A stretch of DNA of 64,000 nucleotides from Glutamicibacter nicotianae (GTDB lineage Bacteria; Actinomycetota; Actinomycetes; Actinomycetales; Micrococcaceae). Shown one piece after another: positions 3-62,217 of the stretch. The DNA lies in NCBI RefSeq assembly GCF_006539525.1, contig NZ_BJNE01000007.1, positions 62,001-126,000 of the forward strand, given 5' to 3'. The position numbers and the translations under genes are program-made. The notes beneath the pieces were generated by a model that was not told where the DNA came from, ran no database searches, and was given only the letters and a program-made list of their open reading frames with translations. Each line of letters opens with the position of its first letter. Positions within the stretch are counted from its first letter, which is position 1.

Positions 3-485
3 TTCATACTGAGCATTGTCCTGCTGTTGTCGGCCAAGGTTGGGTTCAAGCAACTGCGCATGCCATTGATGTCGTTGGCCATGATCCTCAGCGTGGTGTT
101 TGTTCTCCTGGGATTGCAAACAGATTGGGGCAATGCCATAGTTTCGGTTCTGCGGCTCCTGACCATGTGCTTGTTTGCGTATTCTGTCAGCCTGACCACA
201 AGCTTCGACGCCATGCTGGAACTGTTCCAGCAGGTTGCATCTCCCCTACGTTTCATCGGGGCGAATCCTGCGCAAATCGCCTTGGGTTTATCCATGACTA
301 TTCGCTTCATTCCGGAATTGAAAAAGGTATATCTGGAAGTTAGCGAGGCACAGCATGCTCGTGGCCTGGGCAACAACCCGTTGGCCGTGAGCGTTCCGCT
401 AGTGATCAGGTCACTAAAAATCGCAGACGAAACAGCTGAGGCGCTCGACGCCCGCGGCTACGATTCAGCTCCATACCGACGCTAG
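3..485 (+). CDS. bioN: Energy-coupling factor transmembrane protein, EcfT/BioN type (5' partial)
   Basis: The reading frame is open from the first bases of the window, so the N-terminus lies outside; 160 residues are visible against about 200 or more for the family. EcfT is the membrane scaffold that couples ECF ATPases to a substrate-binding S component. The visible part has several hydrophobic stretches and, near the C-terminus, the two Ala-Arg-Gly coupling motifs of the family: QHARGLG at about residues 118-123 and LDARGY at about 149-153. BioY follows 43 bp downstream, so the substrate is most likely biotin. The ATPase gene (bioM) is presumably upstream, outside the window. A TTG at 27 is only an internal codon. 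Confidence 0.85.
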   Translation, partial: FILSIVLLLSAKVGFKQLRMPLMSLAMILSVVFVLLGLQTDWGNAIVSVLRLLTMCLFAYSVSLTTSFDAMLELFQQVASPLRFIGANPAQIALGLSMTIRFIPELKKVYLEVSEAQHARGLGNNPLAVSVPLVIRSLKIADETAEALDARGYDSAPYRR

Positions 486-528: not shown

Positions 529-1110
529 ATGCCAACGAAAACCGACTCAACATCGCAGACGCGCAACACTGTCTATGTAGCGGTCTTTGCCGCAATGATC
601 GCCGCTATGGGGCTCCTCCCGCCCATAACGCTGGGAATCATCCCTGTGCCGATTACCCTGCAAACTCTCGGTGTCATGCTGGCCGGTGCGTTGCTTGGGC
701 CGTGGCGCGGAGCATTGGCCTCACTTGTGGTGGTTGTCCTGTCATTGGCAGGATTGCCCCTGTTATCTGGTGGACGCGGAGGGCTCGGCGTCCTCTTCGG
801 GCCGACCGGAGGTTACCTCGTTGGCTGGATTTTCGGCTCCCTCGTTATCGGAGCACTCTTCAAATACTGGGTCCTGCGCAATGAAAATAAGGGTGTCCGA
901 TTCGTGTCCGGACTGATCTCGGTGCTCCTCGGGGGCGTCGTTGTCATCTACTTGTTCGGAGTTCCGTGGACCGCGGCTACTACCGGGCTTGGTCTGGGAA
1001 CTTCGCTGCTGGGCTCGCTCGGCTTCCTGCCAGGGGACGTCTTCAAGGCTGTCGTGACGACATTGGTGGCATTGACCGTGCATCGCAGCTACCGCGGGTT
1101 GATGGGCTAG
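529..1110 (+). CDS. bioY: Biotin ECF transporter S component BioY
   Basis: The 193-residue integral membrane protein matches BioY in length and character, with hydrophobic helices and the glycine-rich central region GPTGGYLVGW typical of the family. BioY is the high-affinity biotin-binding subunit and works with the EcfT scaffold and ATPases. ATG start preceded by an AAGGAA ribosome-binding site. It sits between bioN and an acyl-CoA ligase gene that starts 5 bp after its stop, so the four genes look like one operon. No obvious BirA or BioR operator could be assigned, since the operon promoter is outside the window. Confidence 0.9.
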   Translation: MPTKTDSTSQTRNTVYVAVFAAMIAAMGLLPPITLGIIPVPITLQTLGVMLAGALLGPWRGALASLVVVVLSLAGLPLLSGGRGGLGVLFGPTGGYLVGWIFGSLVIGALFKYWVLRNENKGVRFVSGLISVLLGGVVVIYLFGVPWTAATTGLGLGTSLLGSLGFLPGDVFKAVVTTLVALTVHRSYRGLMG

Positions 1111-1114
1111 TTCC

Positions 1115-2557
1115 GTGGAACTGTGGCAGTCGCTGGCGAGGTGGGCCGACCAACAACCGGATCGCCTTGCCGTGCTGACTCCTGGAAGACAGCTGACCTA
1201 CGGGCAGCTAAAGAGGAGAAGCAGCGCTATCGCCCGGCAGCTGGATTCATTGCAGAGCACTCGCATTGGTGCGCGTACCAGCGACCCAATAGAAATGGCC
1301 ATCGCCTTCTACGCCATTGCGGCCAGTGGCAAAACGTTGGTTGTCATTGACCCCGCTTGGCCCGAGAATTTGGCAAGCACGATGGCAGCGAGCCTTCACT
1401 GCAAGTACATGATTGAATCTCCCAATTTGACGACATTGCCCGGGGTATCAAGGCTCATGGCATTTCCAGAGTCGCCGGCGGACGACGACTACGTCGCGTC
1501 CGCGGCAAACTTATCCGGTTCCCGCGACTTGCTAGTCATATGCACTTCGGGAAGCTCATCGCGGCCCAAACCGGTAGTCCGGACGGTTGGCTCCTGGGAA
1601 GAATCCTTGAGTGCAGGTTCCCGAATCCTGGGCGCTTCGCTCGATCAGGCCACGCTCTGCCCGAGTCCAATATCCCATGGCCTGGGACTGTACGCGATGG
1701 TCGAATCCGTTCATTCTGGCGGCACATTCTTGGCTACCGGAAAATGGGATCTGAACGGCATGAGGTCGTTGCTCTCTCAGTCCAGTTGCACCCGCATCGT
1801 CAGTGTCCCGACAATTCTCAGGAGGGTGCTTGAGCTGGCCGAGCCGACTTTTCTGTCCAACCTGCTAGTAGTTGTCAGTGGCGGCGAGGCGCTGCACCAA
1901 GAAACAGTGCAATTGCTTCATGAGATCGCCCCTATGGCACGTTGCGTTGAATACTTCGGAAGCAGCGAACACAGCCTCATCGCCTATCGCGAACGCAAAC
2001 CCGACCAGCCCGCATCACCATATTTCGAAGGCCAGTTGTTTCCAGGAGTTCGGGCACACATCCATGGCAAAGATTCTGCTACCGGTTTCGGCCTGCTCTA
2101 TATCGATAGCCCTTTCAATGCCAAAGGCTACGATGCCAGCTCGGAAGCGTCCGTTTCCCGATGCGGCAAGTCGATCGGCATCGGAGATCGTGCGATGCTG
2201 GCGTCGGGTTCAGCCCGCGTCGTGCTCGCTCGCCGCAACGACGAGATGATGAATCTCAACGGCAACAATATCCACCCCGGTGAAGTCAGCGCAGCACTGG
2301 AATCCGTCGGACTGCCCAACGCCATCGTACGACTAGATGAATCGGGTCCTGAACCCCAAATGGTGGCGTACACCGTTTCGCCACCACGCAGTCGGTCCAC
2401 GCTTGTCTCCGGCCTCGGGCAACATTTGTCGCGATACAAGATCCCTCACCGGATTACGTACCTGAGATCGTGGCCGGAAACCTTCAGCGGCAAATTGAAT
2501 ACCGCGGCGTTGAATGACCAGGGCTTGGACATCGAACGGAGCGACTGGCTCAGATGA
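1115..2557 (+). CDS. AMP-forming acyl-CoA ligase, BioY-linked
   Basis: A 480-residue member of the acyl-adenylate-forming superfamily. Visible core motifs are the phosphate-binding loop CTSGSSSRPKP (about 143-153), the substrate/adenine motif YFGSSEHS (280-287), a GD pair at 357-358, the hinge region around RRNDEMMNLNGNNIHPGE (373-390) and the C-terminal lysine motif FSGKLN (Lys460). Such enzymes activate a carboxylate as an acyl-AMP and transfer it to CoA or a carrier. GTG start 4 bp after bioY; its stop overlaps the thiolase ATG by 4 bp, implying translational coupling. The family resembles the ligase encoded beside BioY in Bacillus subtilis (yhfT). A pimelate or related acyl substrate is only an inference. 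Confidence 0.8.
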   Translation: MELWQSLARWADQQPDRLAVLTPGRQLTYGQLKRRSSAIARQLDSLQSTRIGARTSDPIEMAIAFYAIAASGKTLVVIDPAWPENLASTMAASLHCKYMIESPNLTTLPGVSRLMAFPESPADDDYVASAANLSGSRDLLVICTSGSSSRPKPVVRTVGSWEESLSAGSRILGASLDQATLCPSPISHGLGLYAMVESVHSGGTFLATGKWDLNGMRSLLSQSSCTRIVSVPTILRRVLELAEPTFLSNLLVVVSGGEALHQETVQLLHEIAPMARCVEYFGSSEHSLIAYRERKPDQPASPYFEGQLFPGVRAHIHGKDSATGFGLLYIDSPFNAKGYDASSEASVSRCGKSIGIGDRAMLASGSARVVLARRNDEMMNLNGNNIHPGEVSAALESVGLPNAIVRLDESGPEPQMVAYTVSPPRSRSTLVSGLGQHLSRYKIPHRITYLRSWPETFSGKLNTAALNDQGLDIERSDWLR

Positions 2558-3735
2558 ACAAGGCATACATCATTGACGCGGCACGTACCCCGATCGTCAG
2601 GGCAGGCAAAGAATTCTCCCGGGTTGGTGCTGATCATCTGCTTGCGCAGGTGATCAATACGCTATTGGAACGAACCGGAATTTCTCCTGCTCAAGTCGAC
2701 CATGTGTTTGCAGGAAACGCGGCTGGTCCGGGAGGAAATATTGCCCGCGTGTCTGCGTTGGCATCGGTACTGCCGAACACTGTCGGCGCGACGAGCATTG
2801 ATGCCCAATGCGCTAGTGGATTGGACGCCATTGCAGCCGGTGCCCGAATGATCCGCTGCGGTGAAGCCCATGTTGTTGTGGCAGGCGGAGTGGAGTCCGT
2901 GAGTACGGCTCCGTGGCGCGTCGAAAAGCAATCATCCGTTGTCGATCCGCCAAGGCTATACTCGCGTGCGCGATTCACCCCGGCTCCCGATCCAGATCCC
3001 GACATGGGCGTTGCCGCGGAAGCCATTGCCCAGTCCAAGGCGATTACCCAGGAACGTCAAGACGAGTTCGCTTTGCGCAGCCATCGACGTGCCCTGCGCG
3101 CTCAATCTGCCGGACTCTTCGCGGATGAGCTCGTTTCCATCGGCACGAGTAGCGGACGAATCGCGTCTGACGCCTGCCCCAGGTCCGGGCTGACACTCCG
3201 AAAGCTCGCAGCACTCAAGCCCGCCTTCGTACCCGGTGGCACGGTCACGGCGGGAAACTCCTGCCCGATCAATGACGGGGCGGCCGCGGTGATCTTGGTC
3301 AGCGGACAAATGCGCCGGGCGCTGAAAGCGAACTTTGCACTGCGATATCTGGCCTCAGCGCACGGTGCCTGCGATCCCGAGATTCTTGGAATGGCGGCAG
3401 TGCCGGCTTACCGAAAGCTGATCAGTCTCTTGCCGTCTGCCACCGCATCCGGCACTCCCCTCATTGAATTCAATGAAGCCTTTGCCGTTCAGGCGCTCGC
3501 ATGCCTCGATGAATTGGGAATTCCAGAGCAAAACGTGAATCTCAATGGCGGAGCCTTGGCATTGGGCCATCCATACGGTGCCAGCGGTGCAATTCTGACT
3601 ACACGCTTGTTTTGGCAGTCGCAGCAGGCCCAAGTGGATGGCCAGCAAGCCATAGCCCTCATGGCTGCTGCCGGTGGTACCGGAAGCGCCCTTGCATTCG
3701 AGTCAACCCTTCATCTGGATTTCAATGACTGTTAA
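2554..3735 (+). CDS. Thiolase-fold protein lacking the second catalytic cysteine
   Basis: A 393-residue thiolase-family protein. The acylation cysteine is present in QCASGLDA (Cys86), as are the NEAF motif and the GHPYGASGA histidine motif near residue 340. The C-terminal motif, normally C-x-GGGQG with the proton-shuttling cysteine, reads AAAGGTGSA here, putting alanine at residue 371 where cysteine is expected. It may therefore not catalyse ordinary Claisen condensation or thiolysis efficiently, or it may belong to a divergent subfamily. It overlaps the upstream ligase gene by 4 bp. The order BioY, acyl-CoA ligase, thiolase parallels yhfU-yhfT-yhfS of Bacillus subtilis. Its stop abuts the convergent DUF59 gene. 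Confidence 0.8.
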   Translation: MNKAYIIDAARTPIVRAGKEFSRVGADHLLAQVINTLLERTGISPAQVDHVFAGNAAGPGGNIARVSALASVLPNTVGATSIDAQCASGLDAIAAGARMIRCGEAHVVVAGGVESVSTAPWRVEKQSSVVDPPRLYSRARFTPAPDPDPDMGVAAEAIAQSKAITQERQDEFALRSHRRALRAQSAGLFADELVSIGTSSGRIASDACPRSGLTLRKLAALKPAFVPGGTVTAGNSCPINDGAAAVILVSGQMRRALKANFALRYLASAHGACDPEILGMAAVPAYRKLISLLPSATASGTPLIEFNEAFAVQALACLDELGIPEQNVNLNGGALALGHPYGASGAILTTRLFWQSQQAQVDGQQAIALMAAAGGTGSALAFESTLHLDFNDC

Positions 3736-3736
3736 G

Positions 3737-4090
3737 TTAGATATTGAACCCTAGCGCTCTCATTTGATCCCGACCATCATCGGTGATGCGCTCCGGACCC
3801 CACGGCGGCGTCCAAACCCAAGTAATAATGTGATTCTCGACGAGATCTTTCAGTGCTTCATCGATCTGCGCTTCAAGAATCTCGGTCAGCGGGCACGCAG
3901 GAGTTGTCAATGTCAGGTCAATGTCCAGAACGGAGTCGTCGCTAAAACGCAACCCGTAGAGCAGGCCCAAATCAACGATATTGACTCCCAGCTCGGGGTC
4001 AATTACGTCCTTGAGCGCCTCTTCGATTTCTCCTAGCGGACGTCCTGCGTGGGCACTCGCATCTGGTGCTGTTCCAGTCATGCTGGACAT
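3737..4090 (-). CDS. DUF59/MIP18-family Fe-S assembly protein, second SufT-like paralog
   Basis: A 117-residue DUF59 protein. The core reads DPELGVNIVDLGLLYGL followed by LTLTTPACPLTE with the conserved cysteine, and it ends in WGPERITDDGRDQMRALGFN. Members assist maturation or transfer of iron-sulfur clusters. It is very similar to the neighbouring protein at 4265-4609, with identical C-terminal blocks, so the pair looks like a tandem duplication. A strong AGGAGG ribosome-binding site lies just upstream of its ATG. A terminator separates it from the suf operon, and the 174-bp AT-rich spacer suggests its own promoter. A candidate iron box sits in that spacer. Confidence 0.85.
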   Translation of the reverse strand: MSSMTGTAPDASAHAGRPLGEIEEALKDVIDPELGVNIVDLGLLYGLRFSDDSVLDIDLTLTTPACPLTEILEAQIDEALKDLVENHIITWVWTPPWGPERITDDGRDQMRALGFNI

Positions 4091-4264: not shown

Positions 4265-4609
4265 TTAGATGTTGAAGCCCAGGGCTCGCATCTGATCGCG
4301 ACCGTCATCGGTGATTCGTTCTGGACCCCAAGGCGGCATCCAGACCCAGTTCAGACGGTGGTCGTCTACAACGCTCTCCAGCGCCTTGGCAACCTGCTCT
4401 TCGATGATATCGGTGAGCGGGCAGGCGGCAGTGGTCAACGTGAGGTCCAGCAAAAGCACACCGTCATCAGCGTACTTCAGGCCATATAGCAAGCCCAGGT
4501 CGACAATGTTGACACCCAATTCCGGGTCAATGACGTCCTTGAGCGCTTCCTCAACGTCTTCCAGAGGAGTCGTAGCGGCTCCCGTGCTCTGTTCGGTCGA
4601 TTCGCTCAT
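4265..4609 (-). CDS. sufT: SUF-associated DUF59 protein SufT
   Basis: A 114-residue DUF59/MIP18 protein with DPELGVNIVDLGLLYGL, the conserved cysteine in LTTAACPLTD, and the C-terminal PPWGPERITDDG block. In Actinobacteria the last gene of the suf operon commonly encodes this family, thought to act as an accessory factor in Fe-S cluster maturation. It starts 10 bp after the sufC stop and is clearly part of that operon. The usual cysteine desulfurase (sufS) and scaffold (sufU) genes, normally between sufC and this gene, are not here. A near-identical paralog lies just downstream. Confidence 0.85.
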   Translation of the reverse strand: MSESTEQSTGAATTPLEDVEEALKDVIDPELGVNIVDLGLLYGLKYADDGVLLLDLTLTTAACPLTDIIEEQVAKALESVVDDHRLNWVWMPPWGPERITDDGRDQMRALGFNI

Positions 4610-8183: not shown

Positions 8184-8965
8184 CGCGGCCTCTCCTGCTT
8201 CGTGAACTGAATTCGAGTTCTCTTCTCGGCGCGCATTGGCGCCTTTTCACGCCCCACAGGGATGTGGGTCGTGCACACGTGTCCTCCGCCGGCCAGTGTC
8301 GACAGTCGTCGAACGTCGACGCCCAGCAAGCGGGCGAACATTTCAGTTTCCATGTCGCAAAACACCGGAAACTCTCGTGCCAAGTCTTGTATCGGGCAGT
8401 GCCCCTGGCATAGCTGCACGCTATGCATCAGAGCAGATGCCACTTTGGTATCCACTTTTCGGGTGTATCCGACGAATCCATCGGCACTGAGCAGGTTGCC
8501 CAGCACTTCGGCTCGTGCTTCCAAACCTTCAACGCCGACCAGTGCTTTGGCGTACCGCTCCTCCATGGATGCGAATCGATTACGCGCAAACTTGCGAATC
8601 GCGTCCTCGCCAGCCGCATCCCCGAGCATCTTCAATGCATCGGAAGCGATCTCCAAGTAGTCGTTGCCCAGCTTCGTCTGACCGCGGTGCGAAAGCACGT
8701 AGCGGCGAGACGGGCGTCCAGCACCGGTCTTCTGGTTGGCTACCAGTTTTACCTCGACGAGTCCCGATTTCGAGAGCGCGTCCAGGTGGCGGCGGACCGC
8801 AGCAGGCGTGAAGCCCAGCTTGTTTCCAAGCTCGGCGGCACTGACCGGTCCGTCCTCTAATACTGCGTATAGGACGCGGTCACGCGTGCGCTCCTCGGTA
8901 TCCCCAACTGCGCCAAGCGTCGCGGCAGCGGAGCCACTAGCTGATTCTGAATTTGATGAATACAC
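8180..8965 (-). CDS. sufR: Fe-S sensing transcriptional repressor SufR
   Basis: A 261-residue regulator with an N-terminal winged helix-turn-helix ([20 protein letters not shown], about residues 40-60). A C-terminal cysteine cluster, LCQGHCP, then VFCDM and later GHVCTT, is suited to hold an Fe-S cluster. SufR represses its own operon when clusters are sufficient. GTG start; no ribosome-binding site is visible, and CATGAT six bases upstream of the start could be a -10 element of a leaderless transcript. It heads the suf operon and is divergent from the ABC transporter genes. Confidence 0.93.
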
Positions 8966-8998
8966 AACACAATCATGCGTAAATTTTTACTCTAGGTC

Positions 8999-9018
8999 TA
9001 GTAAGGAAGGACTTACTA
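8999..9018. promoter_or_regulatory. Candidate SufR operator palindrome
   Basis: A perfect inverted repeat TAGTAAG-N6-CTTACTA lies 34 bp upstream of the sufR start. It abuts a possible -35 hexamer (TAGACC, minus strand, 8995-9000) positioned 17 bp from CATGAT, the possible sufR -10. Its position in the divergent region suits autorepression. The half-sites differ from the published cyanobacterial and mycobacterial SufR sites, so the assignment rests on symmetry and location. Confidence 0.45.
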
Positions 9019-9143
9019 AGGGCAAGCTAGCCCGACTAGGGCGTTGCCTGCCTCAAACCTCTTGCACTTCCATTGTCTCGCCCCCTTAAGCGGAACTCGA
9101 GGCTTGGTGACCAACCACTCAACTCAGCCAGTTCGACATGTCG

Positions 9144-9149
9144 TAGAAT
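9144..9149 (+). promoter_or_regulatory. Likely -10 element of a leaderless transcript
   Basis: TAGAAT lies exactly six bases upstream of the GTG start of the ABC ATPase gene, and no ribosome-binding site is present. Transcription would begin at or next to the start codon. No convincing -35 was found. Confidence 0.5.
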
Positions 9150-9155
9150 GTTCTA

Positions 9156-10109
9156 GTGTCTTCTGTATCCCCCAGCCTCGTCATCAACGAGCTGGCCAAA
9201 GATTTAGGTCCAGTCCCCGCCTTGGACAATCGCATGCTGCGAGTCCTGGAGTCGGTGTCCCTAAAAGCTTTTCCCGGTCAGGTCACCACGCTTTTAGGAG
9301 CTAACGGAGCCGGCAAGTCCACGACTCTGGCCTGTGCCCAGGGGCTGCTTCAGCCCGAAGGCGGCACAGTCGAACTCCTGGGCCAGAATCCCTTCGGCGA
9401 CAACCCCGAATTGCGCTCCCGCGTCGGAGTCATGCTCCAGGATGGCGGTTTGCCTCCGTCAATGCGCCCGATTCCGCTCTTGCGGCATGTCGCATCCCTC
9501 TATCAGAAGCCCATTGACATTGATGCGTGAATCACACGCCTTGATCTCGAGTCATTCGGCACCCGCACGATCCGGCGTCTATCCGGCGGCCAAAAACAGC
9601 GCGTCGCATTGGCAGTCGCGTTGGCCGGAGATCCGGAAGTGCTTTTCCTCGATGAGCCAAGCGCCGGATTGGACCCGCAGTCGCGCCAGGTGGTTTTCGA
9701 CCTCATTGCCGAACTTCGCGATGCTGGCAAGGCCATCATCTTGACGACCCATCTCATGGACGACGCACAGCGTCTCAGCGACTATGTCTACATCATCGAC
9801 AAGGGCTGCACCGTGGCGCAGGGCACCGTTGCCGAGCTGACTGCCCGCGCTGCCGAAGACCAGGACACCCGCCCGGTCTCTTTCTCGGCCCCAGCTGGCC
9901 TGCGGCTGCCTGAACCGCCGGCAGGATTGCGTCTGGAAGAAACCGCCTCCGGCCAGTACCGCCTCGACGGGGTCAACTCCCCCGAACACTTGAACTGGCT
10001 CACGCAGTGGTGGCTGAAGGAAAGCATCTTGCCAATCGAGCTTAATCTCCAGTCTCGAAGCCTCGAAGACGTTTTCCTCGAAATCGCGATCAAGGAGGAA
10101 AAAGCATGA
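9156..10109 (+). pseudogene. ABC transporter ATPase interrupted by an in-frame TGA
   Basis: An ABC-2 exporter ATPase split by one stop codon. The first 124 codons contain Walker A GANGAGKST (48-56). TGA at 9528-9530 follows, and the same frame continues without a shift to 10109 with the signature LSGGQKQR, Walker B VLFLDEPSAGLD and switch TTHLMDDA. Termination would separate Walker A from the signature and Walker B, abolishing function. Re-initiation at TTG 9609 would start inside the signature region. The downstream permease overlaps by 4 bp and is intact. A recent nonsense mutation, a base-call error or recoding are all possible. The gene is syntenic with the ABC pair between suf and ctaA in other Actinobacteria. 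Confidence 0.8.
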
Positions 10110-10870
10110 GCCAAGCACTCACGCGCTCCAATGCTGCCTCGCCACTGCGCAGAATCCTGAACCAAGGCAGATACGAATCCATCCAGATGCTCAGCAATGG
10201 CGAGCAACTCATTCTCGCTGTTGTCATGCCGCTCATTGCGCTGTTCGTGCTTACCCTCACCGATCTCGTCAATAACGTGGCCGACCGAAGCATTGATGCA
10301 GCTGTACCCGGCGTGCTCGCCCTGTGCGTCATTTCAACGGCTTTCACCGGACAGGGAATCGGGACAGGTTTTGACCGCCGCTACGGCGTGCTGACCATGT
10401 TCTCAACGACCCCATTGGGGAAAACCGGACTGATTTTCGGCAAAGTCATTGCAGTGCTGTCCGTCTTGTTGATCCAGGTCGTCTTGATCTGCTCAGTCGC
10501 GCTGCTGTTCCTGGATTGGCATCCGAACCCCTGGGGAATCCTCCCGGGTATCCTCTTCTTGCTCTTGGGTGCAGCGGCGTTTACCGCGCTGGGCCTGCTC
10601 ATTGCTGGCACCGTTCGCCCTGAAGCGACGTTGGCCATCACCAACCTTGCCTGGATCCTGCTGGCCGGCGCCGGCGGTGTCCTGTATCCCTTGAGCATGG
10701 CCCCAGATTGGGCACAGCCGACGCTGAATGCACTGCCTTCGGCAGCGCTGGGCGATGCCATGCGCGATGCCCTCATCCATGGCCAGTTCAGCATCGCTGG
10801 ACTGATTTTCTTGATCCTCTGGGCAGCAGCCGGCTCCTTTGCAGCCATCAAGCTGTTCAAATGGAGCTAA
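10106..10870 (+). CDS. ABC-2 type transporter permease
   Basis: A 254-residue membrane protein with about six hydrophobic segments, typical of ABC-2 permeases (IILAVVMPLIALFVL region near residue 35, then GLLIAGTVRPE and a C-terminal helix). Its ATG overlaps the ATPase stop by 4 bp, so the two form one exporter. Substrate unknown. It is followed 30 bp later by ctaA, and this neighbourhood is conserved in Actinobacteria, so a role linked to heme or cytochrome assembly is possible but unproven. If the ATPase is truly broken, this permease lacks its partner unless another ATPase substitutes. Confidence 0.85.
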   Translation: MSQALTRSNAASPLRRILNQGRYESIQMLSNGEQLILAVVMPLIALFVLTLTDLVNNVADRSIDAAVPGVLALCVISTAFTGQGIGTGFDRRYGVLTMFSTTPLGKTGLIFGKVIAVLSVLLIQVVLICSVALLFLDWHPNPWGILPGILFLLLGAAAFTALGLLIAGTVRPEATLAITNLAWILLAGAGGVLYPLSMAPDWAQPTLNALPSAALGDAMRDALIHGQFSIAGLIFLILWAAAGSFAAIKLFKWS

Positions 10871-10900: not shown

Positions 10901-11839
10901 TTGACTTCAGTCCAAGCCAAACAGAGCTGGGCCGATAAGTTGCCCACGAAGGTAAACCGCCTCGTGCATGGTCTGGCGATCGCATCCTTGATCTCGCAGA
11001 TTGGCATTATCGTCACCGGAGGGGCCGTAAGGCTTACCGAGTCGGGACTCGGTTGCTCACATTGGCCCAACTGCGTCCCCGGCTCGATGACTCCTGTTCC
11101 GGAAATGGGTATCCACGGCATCATCGAGTTCGGCAACCGCCTGCTGACCTTCGTCCTGCTGGTTATCGCCGTTGCTTTCCTGGTCTCCATCTGGAAGATG
11201 CGCCCGACGCACCGTACCTTGTACAAACTGGCCGTCGGCTTGCTCGCCGGCATCGCACTTCAGGCCCTTGTCGGCGCCATCACCGTATGGACTGGTCTGA
11301 ATGCCTGGGTTGTGTCGGTGCATTTCCTGATTTCCGGGGCTCTGGTCATCATGGCCACGTTCCAGGTCAACCGTACGGCCAAGGAACTGAAAAGCCGGGA
11401 GATTCCGCGGAGCACCAAGTCCATCGGCCAGATTTCATTTGCCGCATGGATCTTCTCGCTGCTCGCTGTCGCGTTCGGAACTGTCGTAACAGGCACCGGA
11501 CCGCACGCTGGTGATGCCGATGCTCCTCGTCACCTGTTCGATCCACTATTCGTGACCCGGCTGCACACGGCTCCGGTGTACTTGCTGGTCGCCGCCACCG
11601 TTGTTGTTCTCATCCTGGCCTACAAGCAGGGCGGAAACAGCCAGCTTCGCAACGCCATTTGGTGGCTCGTGGCCGCTATCGCGATTCAGGCAGCGATCGG
11701 ATACATCCAGCACTTCAATGGCCTGCCGGTTGCCCTGGTTCTCTCTCACATGCTCGGCGCCAGCTTGTTGCTCTCAGCTTCTGCAAACGTCTGGGACCGG
11801 GCCGCTATCCTTCCGGGATACAGGGTCATCGCTTCATAG
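10901..11839 (+). CDS. ctaA: Heme A synthase CtaA
   Basis: A 312-residue polytopic membrane protein of the COX15/CtaA family, which oxidises the C8 methyl of heme O to give heme A for aa3-type cytochrome oxidase. Seen are GGAVRLTESGLGCSHWPNC with conserved His and Cys, further conserved histidines in IHGIIEFGNR and SVHFLISG, and TRLHTAPVYLL and LSHMLGASLL in the second half, consistent with two four-helix heme-binding repeats. TTG start preceded by AGAGGGAGA. ctaB, which makes the heme O substrate, is convergent 0.8 kb away. Confidence 0.93.
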   Translation: MTSVQAKQSWADKLPTKVNRLVHGLAIASLISQIGIIVTGGAVRLTESGLGCSHWPNCVPGSMTPVPEMGIHGIIEFGNRLLTFVLLVIAVAFLVSIWKMRPTHRTLYKLAVGLLAGIALQALVGAITVWTGLNAWVVSVHFLISGALVIMATFQVNRTAKELKSREIPRSTKSIGQISFAAWIFSLLAVAFGTVVTGTGPHAGDADAPRHLFDPLFVTRLHTAPVYLLVAATVVVLILAYKQGGNSQLRNAIWWLVAAIAIQAAIGYIQHFNGLPVALVLSHMLGASLLLSASANVWDRAAILPGYRVIAS

Positions 11840-11850
11840 CATTCTGCGTA

Positions 11851-11903
11851 AGCGTTTCGGGGGTTGCCCTGCACTCAAAGTGCACGGCAACCCCCGAATC
11901 GCT
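11851..11903. terminator. Strong stem-loop after ctaA
   Basis: An 18-bp stem (11851-11868 with 11886-11903, one mismatch), with an inner GCACT/AGTGC extension, begins 12 bp after the ctaA stop. It is followed by a short TTTAACTATC stretch. Probable terminator. Confidence 0.75.
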
Positions 11904-60741: not shown

Positions 60742-62217
60742 TTAGTTGCCGGTCAGCTTCTCGCGCAGTGCAGCCAGTGCTTCGTCCGAAGCCAGGGTGC
60801 CTGCATCGGTGGCTGGTGCCTCCGAGGAGTACGAAGCTGGAGCTGGCTCGGAACCACCGGCAGCAGCAGGCTCAGCTTCTGCATCGGCGGCGATTGCGGC
60901 AGCAACCTGCTTCTTGTGCGCTTCCCAACGCTCCTGGGCAGCAGCGTACTGTGCTTCCCATGCAGCGCGCTGAGCGTCGAAGCCCTCGAGCCATTCGTTC
61001 GACTCTGGGTCGAAGCCCTCTGGGTACTTGTAGTTGCCGGCCTCGTCGTACTCTGCAGCCATGCCGTAGAGTGCTGGGTCGAACTCGGTGCCCTCTGGGT
61101 CAACACCTTCGTTAGCCTGCTTGAGCGACAGCGAGATGCGGCGGCGCTCCAGGTCGATGTCGATGACCTTGACGAACAGCTCGTCGCCCACGGAGACAAC
61201 CTGCTCGGCCAGTTCAACGTGGCGAACTGCCAGCTCGGAGATGTGAACCAGGCCTTCGATGCCGTCTTCGACGCGTACGAACGCACCGAATGGAACCAGC
61301 TTGGTAACCTTGCCCGGTACAACCTGACCCAGTGCGTGGGTGCGGGCGAAGGTCTGCCATGGATCTTCCTGGGTAGCCTTCAGCGACAAGGAAACGCGCT
61401 CGCGGTCCAGATCGACTTCCAGAACCTCGACGGTGACTTCCTGGCCAACCTCGACAACCTCGGATGGGTGGTCGATGTGCTTCCAGGACAGCTCGGAAAC
61501 GTGTACCAGGCCGTCTACGCCGCCCAGGTCCACGAAGGCACCGAAGTTGACGATGGAGGAAACAACGCCCGGACGAACCTGGCCCTTTTCCAGCTTGTTG
61601 AGGAAGGTCGAGCGGACCTCGGACTGGGTCTGCTCGAGCCATGCACGGCGGGAGAGCACAACGTTGTTGCGGTTCTTGTCCAGCTCGATGATCTTGGCTT
61701 CGATTTCCTGGCCGATGTATGGAGCCAGGTCGCGCACACGGCGCATCTCGACGAGCGATGCTGGCAGGAAGCCACGCAGGCCGATGTCCAGGATGAGGCC
61801 ACCCTTGACAACCTCGATGACGGTACCGGTAACGACGCCGTCCTCTTCCTTGATCTTTTCGATGTCGCCCCAAGCGCGCTCGTACTGTGCACGCTTCTTG
61901 GACAGGATCAGGCGGCCTTCCTTGTCTTCCTTGGTCAGGACCAAGGCTTCGACGCTGTCGCCAACGGTGACAACTTCACCTGGGTCGACGTCGTGCTTGA
62001 TGGAAAGCTCGCGGGAAGGGATGACACCTTCGGTCTTGTAACCGATGTCGAGCAGAACTTCGTCGTGGTCAACCTTGACGACGGTGCCTTCGACGAGGTC
62101 ACCATCGTTGAAGTACTTGATGGTGGCATCGACTGCGGCCAAGAAGTCCTCAGCAGATCCAATGTCGTTGATTGCGACGACTGGTGCGCTGTTGTTCTCG
62201 TTCGAGGTGATGGTCAT
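60742..62217 (-). CDS. rpsA: 30S ribosomal protein S1
   Basis: A 491-residue S1 protein with four S1/OB domains at about 36-105, 122-188, 207-277 and 294-363, the last two with GAFVDLGGVDGLVHVSEL and GAFVRVEDGIEGLVHISEL. They are followed by a long acidic, Ala/Glu/Pro-rich tail of about 125 residues. S1 binds mRNA leaders on the ribosome. Actinobacterial S1 usually has four domains instead of the six of E. coli. ATG at 62217 has CGGAG upstream; the open frame runs to 62307 but is not family-like. Confidence 0.95.
   Translation of the reverse strand: MTITSNENNSAPVVAINDIGSAEDFLAAVDATIKYFNDGDLVEGTVVKVDHDEVLLDIGYKTEGVIPSRELSIKHDVDPGEVVTVGDSVEALVLTKEDKEGRLILSKKRAQYERAWGDIEKIKEEDGVVTGTVIEVVKGGLILDIGLRGFLPASLVEMRRVRDLAPYIGQEIEAKIIELDKNRNNVVLSRRAWLEQTQSEVRSTFLNKLEKGQVRPGVVSSIVNFGAFVDLGGVDGLVHVSELSWKHIDHPSEVVEVGQEVTVEVLEVDLDRERVSLSLKATQEDPWQTFARTHALGQVVPGKVTKLVPFGAFVRVEDGIEGLVHISELAVRHVELAEQVVSVGDELFVKVIDIDLERRRISLSLKQANEGVDPEGTEFDPALYGMAAEYDEAGNYKYPEGFDPESNEWLEGFDAQRAAWEAQYAAAQERWEAHKKQVAAAIAADAEAEPAAAGGSEPAPASYSSEAPATDAGTLASDEALAALREKLTGN

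Follow-up and report, generated by a model that had tools for sequence, protein, structure and literature searches.

A ligase–thiolase pair linked to biotin import in Glutamicibacter nicotianae, with an apparently moved active-site cysteine and a possible role in biotin salvage

The closest described systems to the locus presented here are the YhfU-YhfT-YhfS set of Bacillus (a BioY protein, an acyl-CoA ligase and a thiolase-like protein) and the yhfT-yhfS pair of Staphylococcus aureus, where biotin represses the yhfS-yhfT operon via BirA (PMC6391492). In Bacillus and Staphylococcus, both genes are known to belong to the biotin regulon, and no function was assigned to them in the literature that we found. 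Here, we describe an operon of Glutamicibacter nicotianae that lies at the start of a 64,000-nucleotide stretch of contig NZ_BJNE01000007.1 (positions 62,001 to 126,000, forward strand; hereafter “the window”), and that joins the genes of a biotin transporter to those of an AMP-forming acyl-CoA ligase and a thiolase-fold condensing enzyme. This thiolase belongs to a clade in which the second catalytic cysteine has apparently been moved to another active-site loop, and yhfT and yhfS are now tied to this cross-phylum family, which is marked by a diagnostic change in the active site and accompanied by a set of elongation genes. We favour, at slightly less than an even chance, the interpretation that the ligase and the thiolase carry out the activation and chain-joining in a reductive C2-elongation module under biotin control, which is coupled to biotin import and most likely salvages side-chain-shortened biotin.

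The order of the genes is bioM-bioN-bioY-ligase-thiolase, in one tight operon on the forward strand, with the window starting within bioN. The first gene, bioM (11194–11883 of locus L002, 5' of the window start), overlaps by 16 nucleotides the gene bioN (EcfT, CbiQ family), whose whole length is L002 11868–12485, equal to window −132..485, and whose 3' part in the window (3..485) matches Pfam CbiQ with 50.7 bits. After a spacer of 43 nucleotides follows bioY (529..1110; Pfam BioY, 8e-37), the S component of the energy-coupling factor (ECF) transporter and the only BioY in the 3.55 Mb genome, and after 4 more nucleotides the ligase gene (1115..2557; Pfam AMP-binding, 5e-39), which has a GTG start and overlaps the thiolase gene (2554..3735; Pfam Thiolase_N/C) by 4 nucleotides (ATGA). 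The preliminary description of this DNA had given bioN-bioY-ligase-thiolase with overlaps or short spacers, and these coordinates hold, the operon starting earlier than described, at bioM. EcfA, EcfT and BioY are thus encoded together, as in a BioMNY ECF transporter, where bioM, bioN and bioY likewise share one operon, the difference being the added ligase and thiolase genes. The likeness to Bacillus yhfU-yhfT-yhfS drawn in the same description is borne out by the best NCBIfam equivalogs, which are NF005797/PRK07638 (YhfT) for the ligase (112.8 bits against a cut-off of 518) and NF005212/PRK06690 (YhfS) for the thiolase (298.8 bits against 498), neither cut-off being reached. Besides these scores, the locus differs from the Bacillus set in having bioM and bioN within the operon and an operator of the BioQ type instead of the BirA type. 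The ligase keeps the core motifs of the ANL superfamily in conserved columns (TSG, G-x-x-E, GD and the C-terminal Lys460), and its AlphaFold2 model (predicted local distance difference test score, pLDDT, 90.9) has DltA, the A-domains of non-ribosomal peptide synthetases, feruloyl-CoA synthetase and MenE as nearest folds, which in the model is the picture of an ordinary ANL enzyme and nothing further.

The thiolase model (pLDDT 95.5) is nearest to structure 1ulq (Z 58.5), and the protein resembles the canonical thiolases of Zoogloea ramigera, human T2 and Thermus thermophilus (1ulq) in its fold (Z about 57–58), its CxS cysteine, its NEAF asparagine and its GHP histidine. Relatives were searched with a four-sequence alignment in 84,980 species genomes, and the best 80 of more than 593 pattern matches were studied, a sample in which distant members are under-represented; they come from Glutamicibacter, Arthrobacter, Saccharopolyspora, Streptomyces, Paenibacillus and other Bacilli, Azospirillum, Rhizobium, Sinorhizobium and some uncultured lineages. 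Among the 78 members that could be aligned, the nucleophilic Cys86 of the CxS loop (codon TGC, 2809..2811) and His339 of the GHP loop (3568..3570) are invariant (78/78 each), and Asn307 of the NEAF loop (3472..3474) is found in 75, the other three having Thr. Residue 371, the position of the canonical acid/base cysteine in the CxG loop, is Ala in the window (GCT, 3664..3666), and Gly in 52, Ser in 18 and Ala in 8 of the family members, never Cys. All 78 have a cysteine at position 237 instead (TGC, 3262..3264), in the motif TAGN[AS]C of the pantetheine loop, a loop named here from Ala280-Thr285 of human T2, in which the matching Ser284 sits in the pantetheine loop lining the tunnel to the active site (PMC6790690). 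The differences from canonical thiolases are the replacement of the CxG cysteine by Ala, Gly or Ser, and that of the pantetheine-loop serine by cysteine; serine occupies position 237 in the three nearest PDB sequences and in most canonical thiolases.

The exchange is without exception in an alignment of 142 rows made of the family together with further thiolases from Actinobacteria, from the genome itself and from 200 Bacilli genomes, with a few proteins entered twice (that of the window, and some from Bacilli genomes that were retrieved in two ways), which makes the distinct count slightly lower. Ninety-eight rows have Cys237 and no Cys371 (residue 371 being Gly in 71, Ser in 18 and Ala in 9), and 44 canonical rows show the reverse, Cys371 without Cys237. 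The 98 rows form a single clade in a FastTree phylogeny (support 0.762), whose members span Actinobacteria, Bacilli, Alphaproteobacteria and others, and which includes the ligase-adjacent YhfS-type proteins of Bacilli, likewise with Cys237 and no Cys371. Within Bacilli, all 19 ligase-adjacent thiolases are of the relocated type, and all 11 of the nearest unlinked thiolases are canonical. From these alignments, the second cysteine does not seem merely lost but apparently moved, and Cys237, rather than residue 371, is the likely acid/base. The preliminary description was right, down to the codons, about Cys86, NEAF, GHP and Ala371, and its statement that the second cysteine is missing stands insofar as residue 371 is never Cys in the clade; it had overlooked the invariant Cys237. 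The conserved loss at 371 and its suggestion of a non-classical thiolase are both supported. A precedent exists in the SCP2-thiolases, whose second catalytic cysteine likewise occupies another loop (HDCF; PMC7682436). There it is in the NEAF-equivalent loop, unlike the present family, which keeps NEAF (TEAF in three members) and carries its new cysteine in the pantetheine loop. The exchange would be a second natural case, beside the SCP2-thiolases, of a catalytic residue moved between thiolase active-site loops.

Other interpretations of this active site were considered. An inert pseudo-thiolase is rejected on the invariant Cys86, His339 and Cys237 and the nearly invariant Asn307; a shift of the cysteine by one position (Cys370) occurs only in loci L016 and L029, and so is not general; and a decarboxylating enzyme like the ketoacyl synthases (KAS), raised because of the loss of Cys371, is retained solely as a question about the donor, given the thiolase fold, the NEAF and GHP loops and Cys237. 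The thiolases of L016 and L029, both actinobacterial, are a further active-site variant, with Thr for Asn in NEAF and Cys directly before 371. The nearest unlinked thiolases of Bacilli (L141–L150 and L152) have the DRQCGSG motif and a DPPMG-like loop in common with the relocated family, keep Cys371 and Ser237, and may be its ancestral sister group.

Given that the loci were picked by the thiolase alone, their neighbour genes are an independent result. Of the 74 loci whose thiolase could be scored, 70 have the ligase next to it; BioY is present at 66 of 80 loci, with six of the 14 BioY-less loci broken by contig ends. The shared pathway of the preliminary description was made to depend on the loss of the second cysteine being general among BioY-neighbouring thiolases and on the cluster not being limited to close relatives; these thiolases were never found to keep that cysteine, and the cluster spans phyla. 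In Bacilli, the operons often extend to a HadA-like protein (FAS1_DH), a HadB-like MaoC protein and a FabG-like short-chain dehydrogenase/reductase (SDR), and FabK-like flavin enoyl reductases are found in six loci (L046, L053, L056, L057, L082 and L087). The ligase-thiolase pair of rhizobia has a YbgC/FadM-type thioesterase and a medium-chain dehydrogenase/reductase (MDR) at its flanks, and an MDR of this rhizobial type also lies upstream of bioM in Azospirillum and divergently in Streptomyces, its nearest PDB relatives being one putative quinone reductase and then the mitochondrial 2-enoyl thioester reductases (MECR-like, E about 1e-27). Because two unrelated enoyl reductases, as well as a thioesterase, stand by the same pair, the reductive direction is indicated, that is, a building sequence of condensation, reduction, dehydration, a second reduction and release.

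The same parts (ligase, hydratase-type, dehydrogenase-type and thiolase genes) would also serve beta-oxidation, and the pair could accordingly belong to the catabolism of the biotin side chain. We consider this very unlikely, since we noticed no acyl-CoA dehydrogenase gene among those of the operons, whereas FabK-like and MDR reductases occur, since the acid/base cysteine of thiolysis is absent, and since biotin shuts off expression in S. aureus (PMC6391492). Hardly more probable is the possibility, raised in part by the preliminary description, that the ligase makes biotinyl-CoA and that the role of the thiolase-fold protein is limited to binding the acyl group or passing it on. The loss of the canonical acid/base cysteine would suit such holding or trapping, which is disfavoured by the invariance of Cys86, His339 and the new cysteine, the near-invariance of Asn307, and the reductases and thioesterase in the operons of relatives.

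The link to biotin comes from the BioY neighbours and also from candidate operators, all of them consensus matches, and both bear out the biotin connection proposed in the preliminary description. Two boxes lie 5' of bioM, TTGAACACTGATCAA (G000:C7:61053-61067) and TTGAACGGTGATCAA (61073-61087), that is, 947–914 bases ahead of the window, and one box, TTGAACATTGTTCAA, lies 5' of bioB. The pattern TTGAACNNNGWTCAA has only three exact matches genome-wide, namely the one before bioB and the two before bioM, and its reversed control pattern has 0 matches in the whole genome. Compared with the predicted actinobacterial BioQ site TGAAC-N3-GTTCA (PMC3398298), the two TTGAACNNNGATCAA boxes before bioM have one mismatch each, and the bioB box is perfect. 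The operator of the operon thus fits a putative BioQ type, and the tandem bioM boxes are kept in five relatives. In Bacilli, BirA-type operators (up to 3 mismatches in 16 specified bases) precede the operon in 11 loci scored against shuffles, with a weaker twelfth, L095, in which other windows of the locus score equally; one of the 11 is L056, whose operon is without bioY. Since these operators are of the biotin type and the S. aureus operon is repressed by biotin, the module is expected to be switched on under biotin scarcity.

Such control would equally suit a biotin-sparing lipid synthesis, in which, with biotin scarce and acetyl-CoA carboxylase failing, the ligase would activate scavenged fatty acids, and the thiolase and reductases would elongate them with acetyl-CoA and no malonyl-CoA. 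The S. aureus repression (PMC6391492) and the operators, the complete reverse-beta-oxidation-like gene set, and an indifference to BioB content that suits auxotrophs and prototrophs alike, all speak for it. We regard it as unlikely nevertheless, given that the rhizobial thioesterase yields a free acid, unwanted in lipid synthesis, that the tight bioMNY linkage across phyla suggests the imported compound as substrate, and, weakly, that the ligase model is closer to small-acid than to long-chain ligases.

The biotin synthesis genes of the carrier genomes bear on what the module could produce. Among 54 genomes with the cluster, bioA, bioD and bioB are all present in 31, bioB alone in nine, bioD only in one and none of them in 13; four of 20 additional Bacilli genomes are without bioB. 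BioB is thus absent from 18 of the 74 genomes carrying the pair. Biotin auxotrophy has been reported for many rhizobia (PMC8914248). The preliminary description had considered the building of a biotin precursor, and in its explicit form the pair would lengthen a short diacid (e.g., glutaryl-CoA with acetyl-CoA) and so supply BioF or BioW with pimeloyl-CoA or pimelate, as a thiolase-based counterpart of BioZ. The 31 genomes with the three genes agree with this, and so do the biotin regulation, the elongation and thioesterase partners, which also suit pimelate making, and the free pimelate of B. subtilis, whose natural source is described as unknown (PMC11089781). Carriers without BioB (18 of 74, including the 13 of 54 without any of the three genes) would have no use for such a product, and therefore precursor building cannot be the general role of the pair, pimelate synthesis as a general function being ruled out by the carriers without BioB, BioA and BioD. 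Moreover, only 12 of 71 carrier genomes have BioW, no BioW (TIGR01204) match is present in the window genome, where the ligase of the operon belongs to the ANL superfamily, and a cytochrome P450 occupies the BioI position in the bio operon of that genome, so that we judge precursor building improbable. BioZ is, like the present thiolase, a thiolase-superfamily enzyme recruited to biotin metabolism; it differs in being KAS III-like and in depending on BioF-A-D-B downstream, whereas the relocated-cysteine family also occurs in genomes without these.

The persistence of the ligase-thiolase module in genomes without BioB counts for salvage. Obtaining usable biotin without BioB requires that both rings be already present, and therefore side-chain-shortened biotin is the best substrate candidate. 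Bisnorbiotin and tetranorbiotin are products of biotin beta-oxidation. In the proposed C2-elongation salvage, BioMNY would import a carboxylic acid, most likely bisnorbiotin and perhaps tetranorbiotin; the ligase would convert it to the CoA thioester; and Cys86 of the thiolase would receive the acyl group and join it to a C2 unit (from acetyl-CoA or malonyl-CoA), Cys237 probably serving as acid/base. The resulting 3-oxo compound would be reduced, dehydrated and reduced again, in some clades by the FabG-like SDR, HadA/HadB-like, and FabK-like or MECR-like enzymes, and in clades without dedicated reductive enzymes, presumably including the window genome, we infer that fatty-acid-synthesis enzymes step in. 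The thioesterase would then free the product as the acid, so that biotin would be rebuilt from its breakdown products under scarcity, and a condensing enzyme of the acetyl-CoA type would sidestep malonyl-CoA, whose making needs biotin. Taken as a whole, an undescribed vitamin-salvage route in which biotin with a degraded side chain is taken up, activated with CoA and rebuilt by a biotin-repressed C2 cycle with a relocated-cysteine thiolase seems to us possible, though rather doubtful. If it is true, biotin breakdown products would form a common pool of nutrients, and the number of “auxotrophs” would have to be revised. The open literature, searched for salvage of norbiotin and for BioY in combination with a thiolase, yielded nothing relevant.

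Several observations weigh against salvage by C2 elongation. The norbiotin substrate is inferred from genome context, and a complete bioB-bioA-bioF-P450-bioD operon is present in the window genome, for which salvage is therefore dispensable. An adjacent BioY is missing from eight loci whose flanks are adequate (in Paenibacillus, Rhizobium and Alicyclobacillus). The FabK-like proteins score 277–297 bits, under the FabK cut-off of 453, and the HadA-like proteins are also under their curated cut-off. No BioR box within one mismatch was found near the alphaproteobacterial operons, and no convincing BioQ-like box in the Arthrobacter-type and other actinobacterial loci. Apart from these points, in the Arthrobacter-type loci (L078, L080, L081, L092, L103, L109, L112 and L118), the ligase-thiolase pair is convergent with bioY-bioM-bioN, as a separate transcription unit, and the 9-mers common to their ligase and bioY promoters gave nothing consistent.

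The bio operon of the window genome lies on the reverse strand (L121, G000:C6, 8742..3033), with its cytochrome P450 between bioF and bioD, in the position of the BioI role (cf. B. subtilis). The nearest PDB relatives of this P450 are assorted P450s, and a BioI function is our guess from its position. In Ammoniphilus (L119), the thiolase gene is followed after 50 bp by a gene for a molybdopterin oxidoreductase that has an Fe4S4 domain (8193–10241, forward strand). Finally, two FeS_assembly_P (DUF59) genes, 68% identical, lie in the window convergent with the thiolase (3737–4090 and 4265–4609, both on the reverse strand) and adjoin suf genes, apparently as a tandem duplication.

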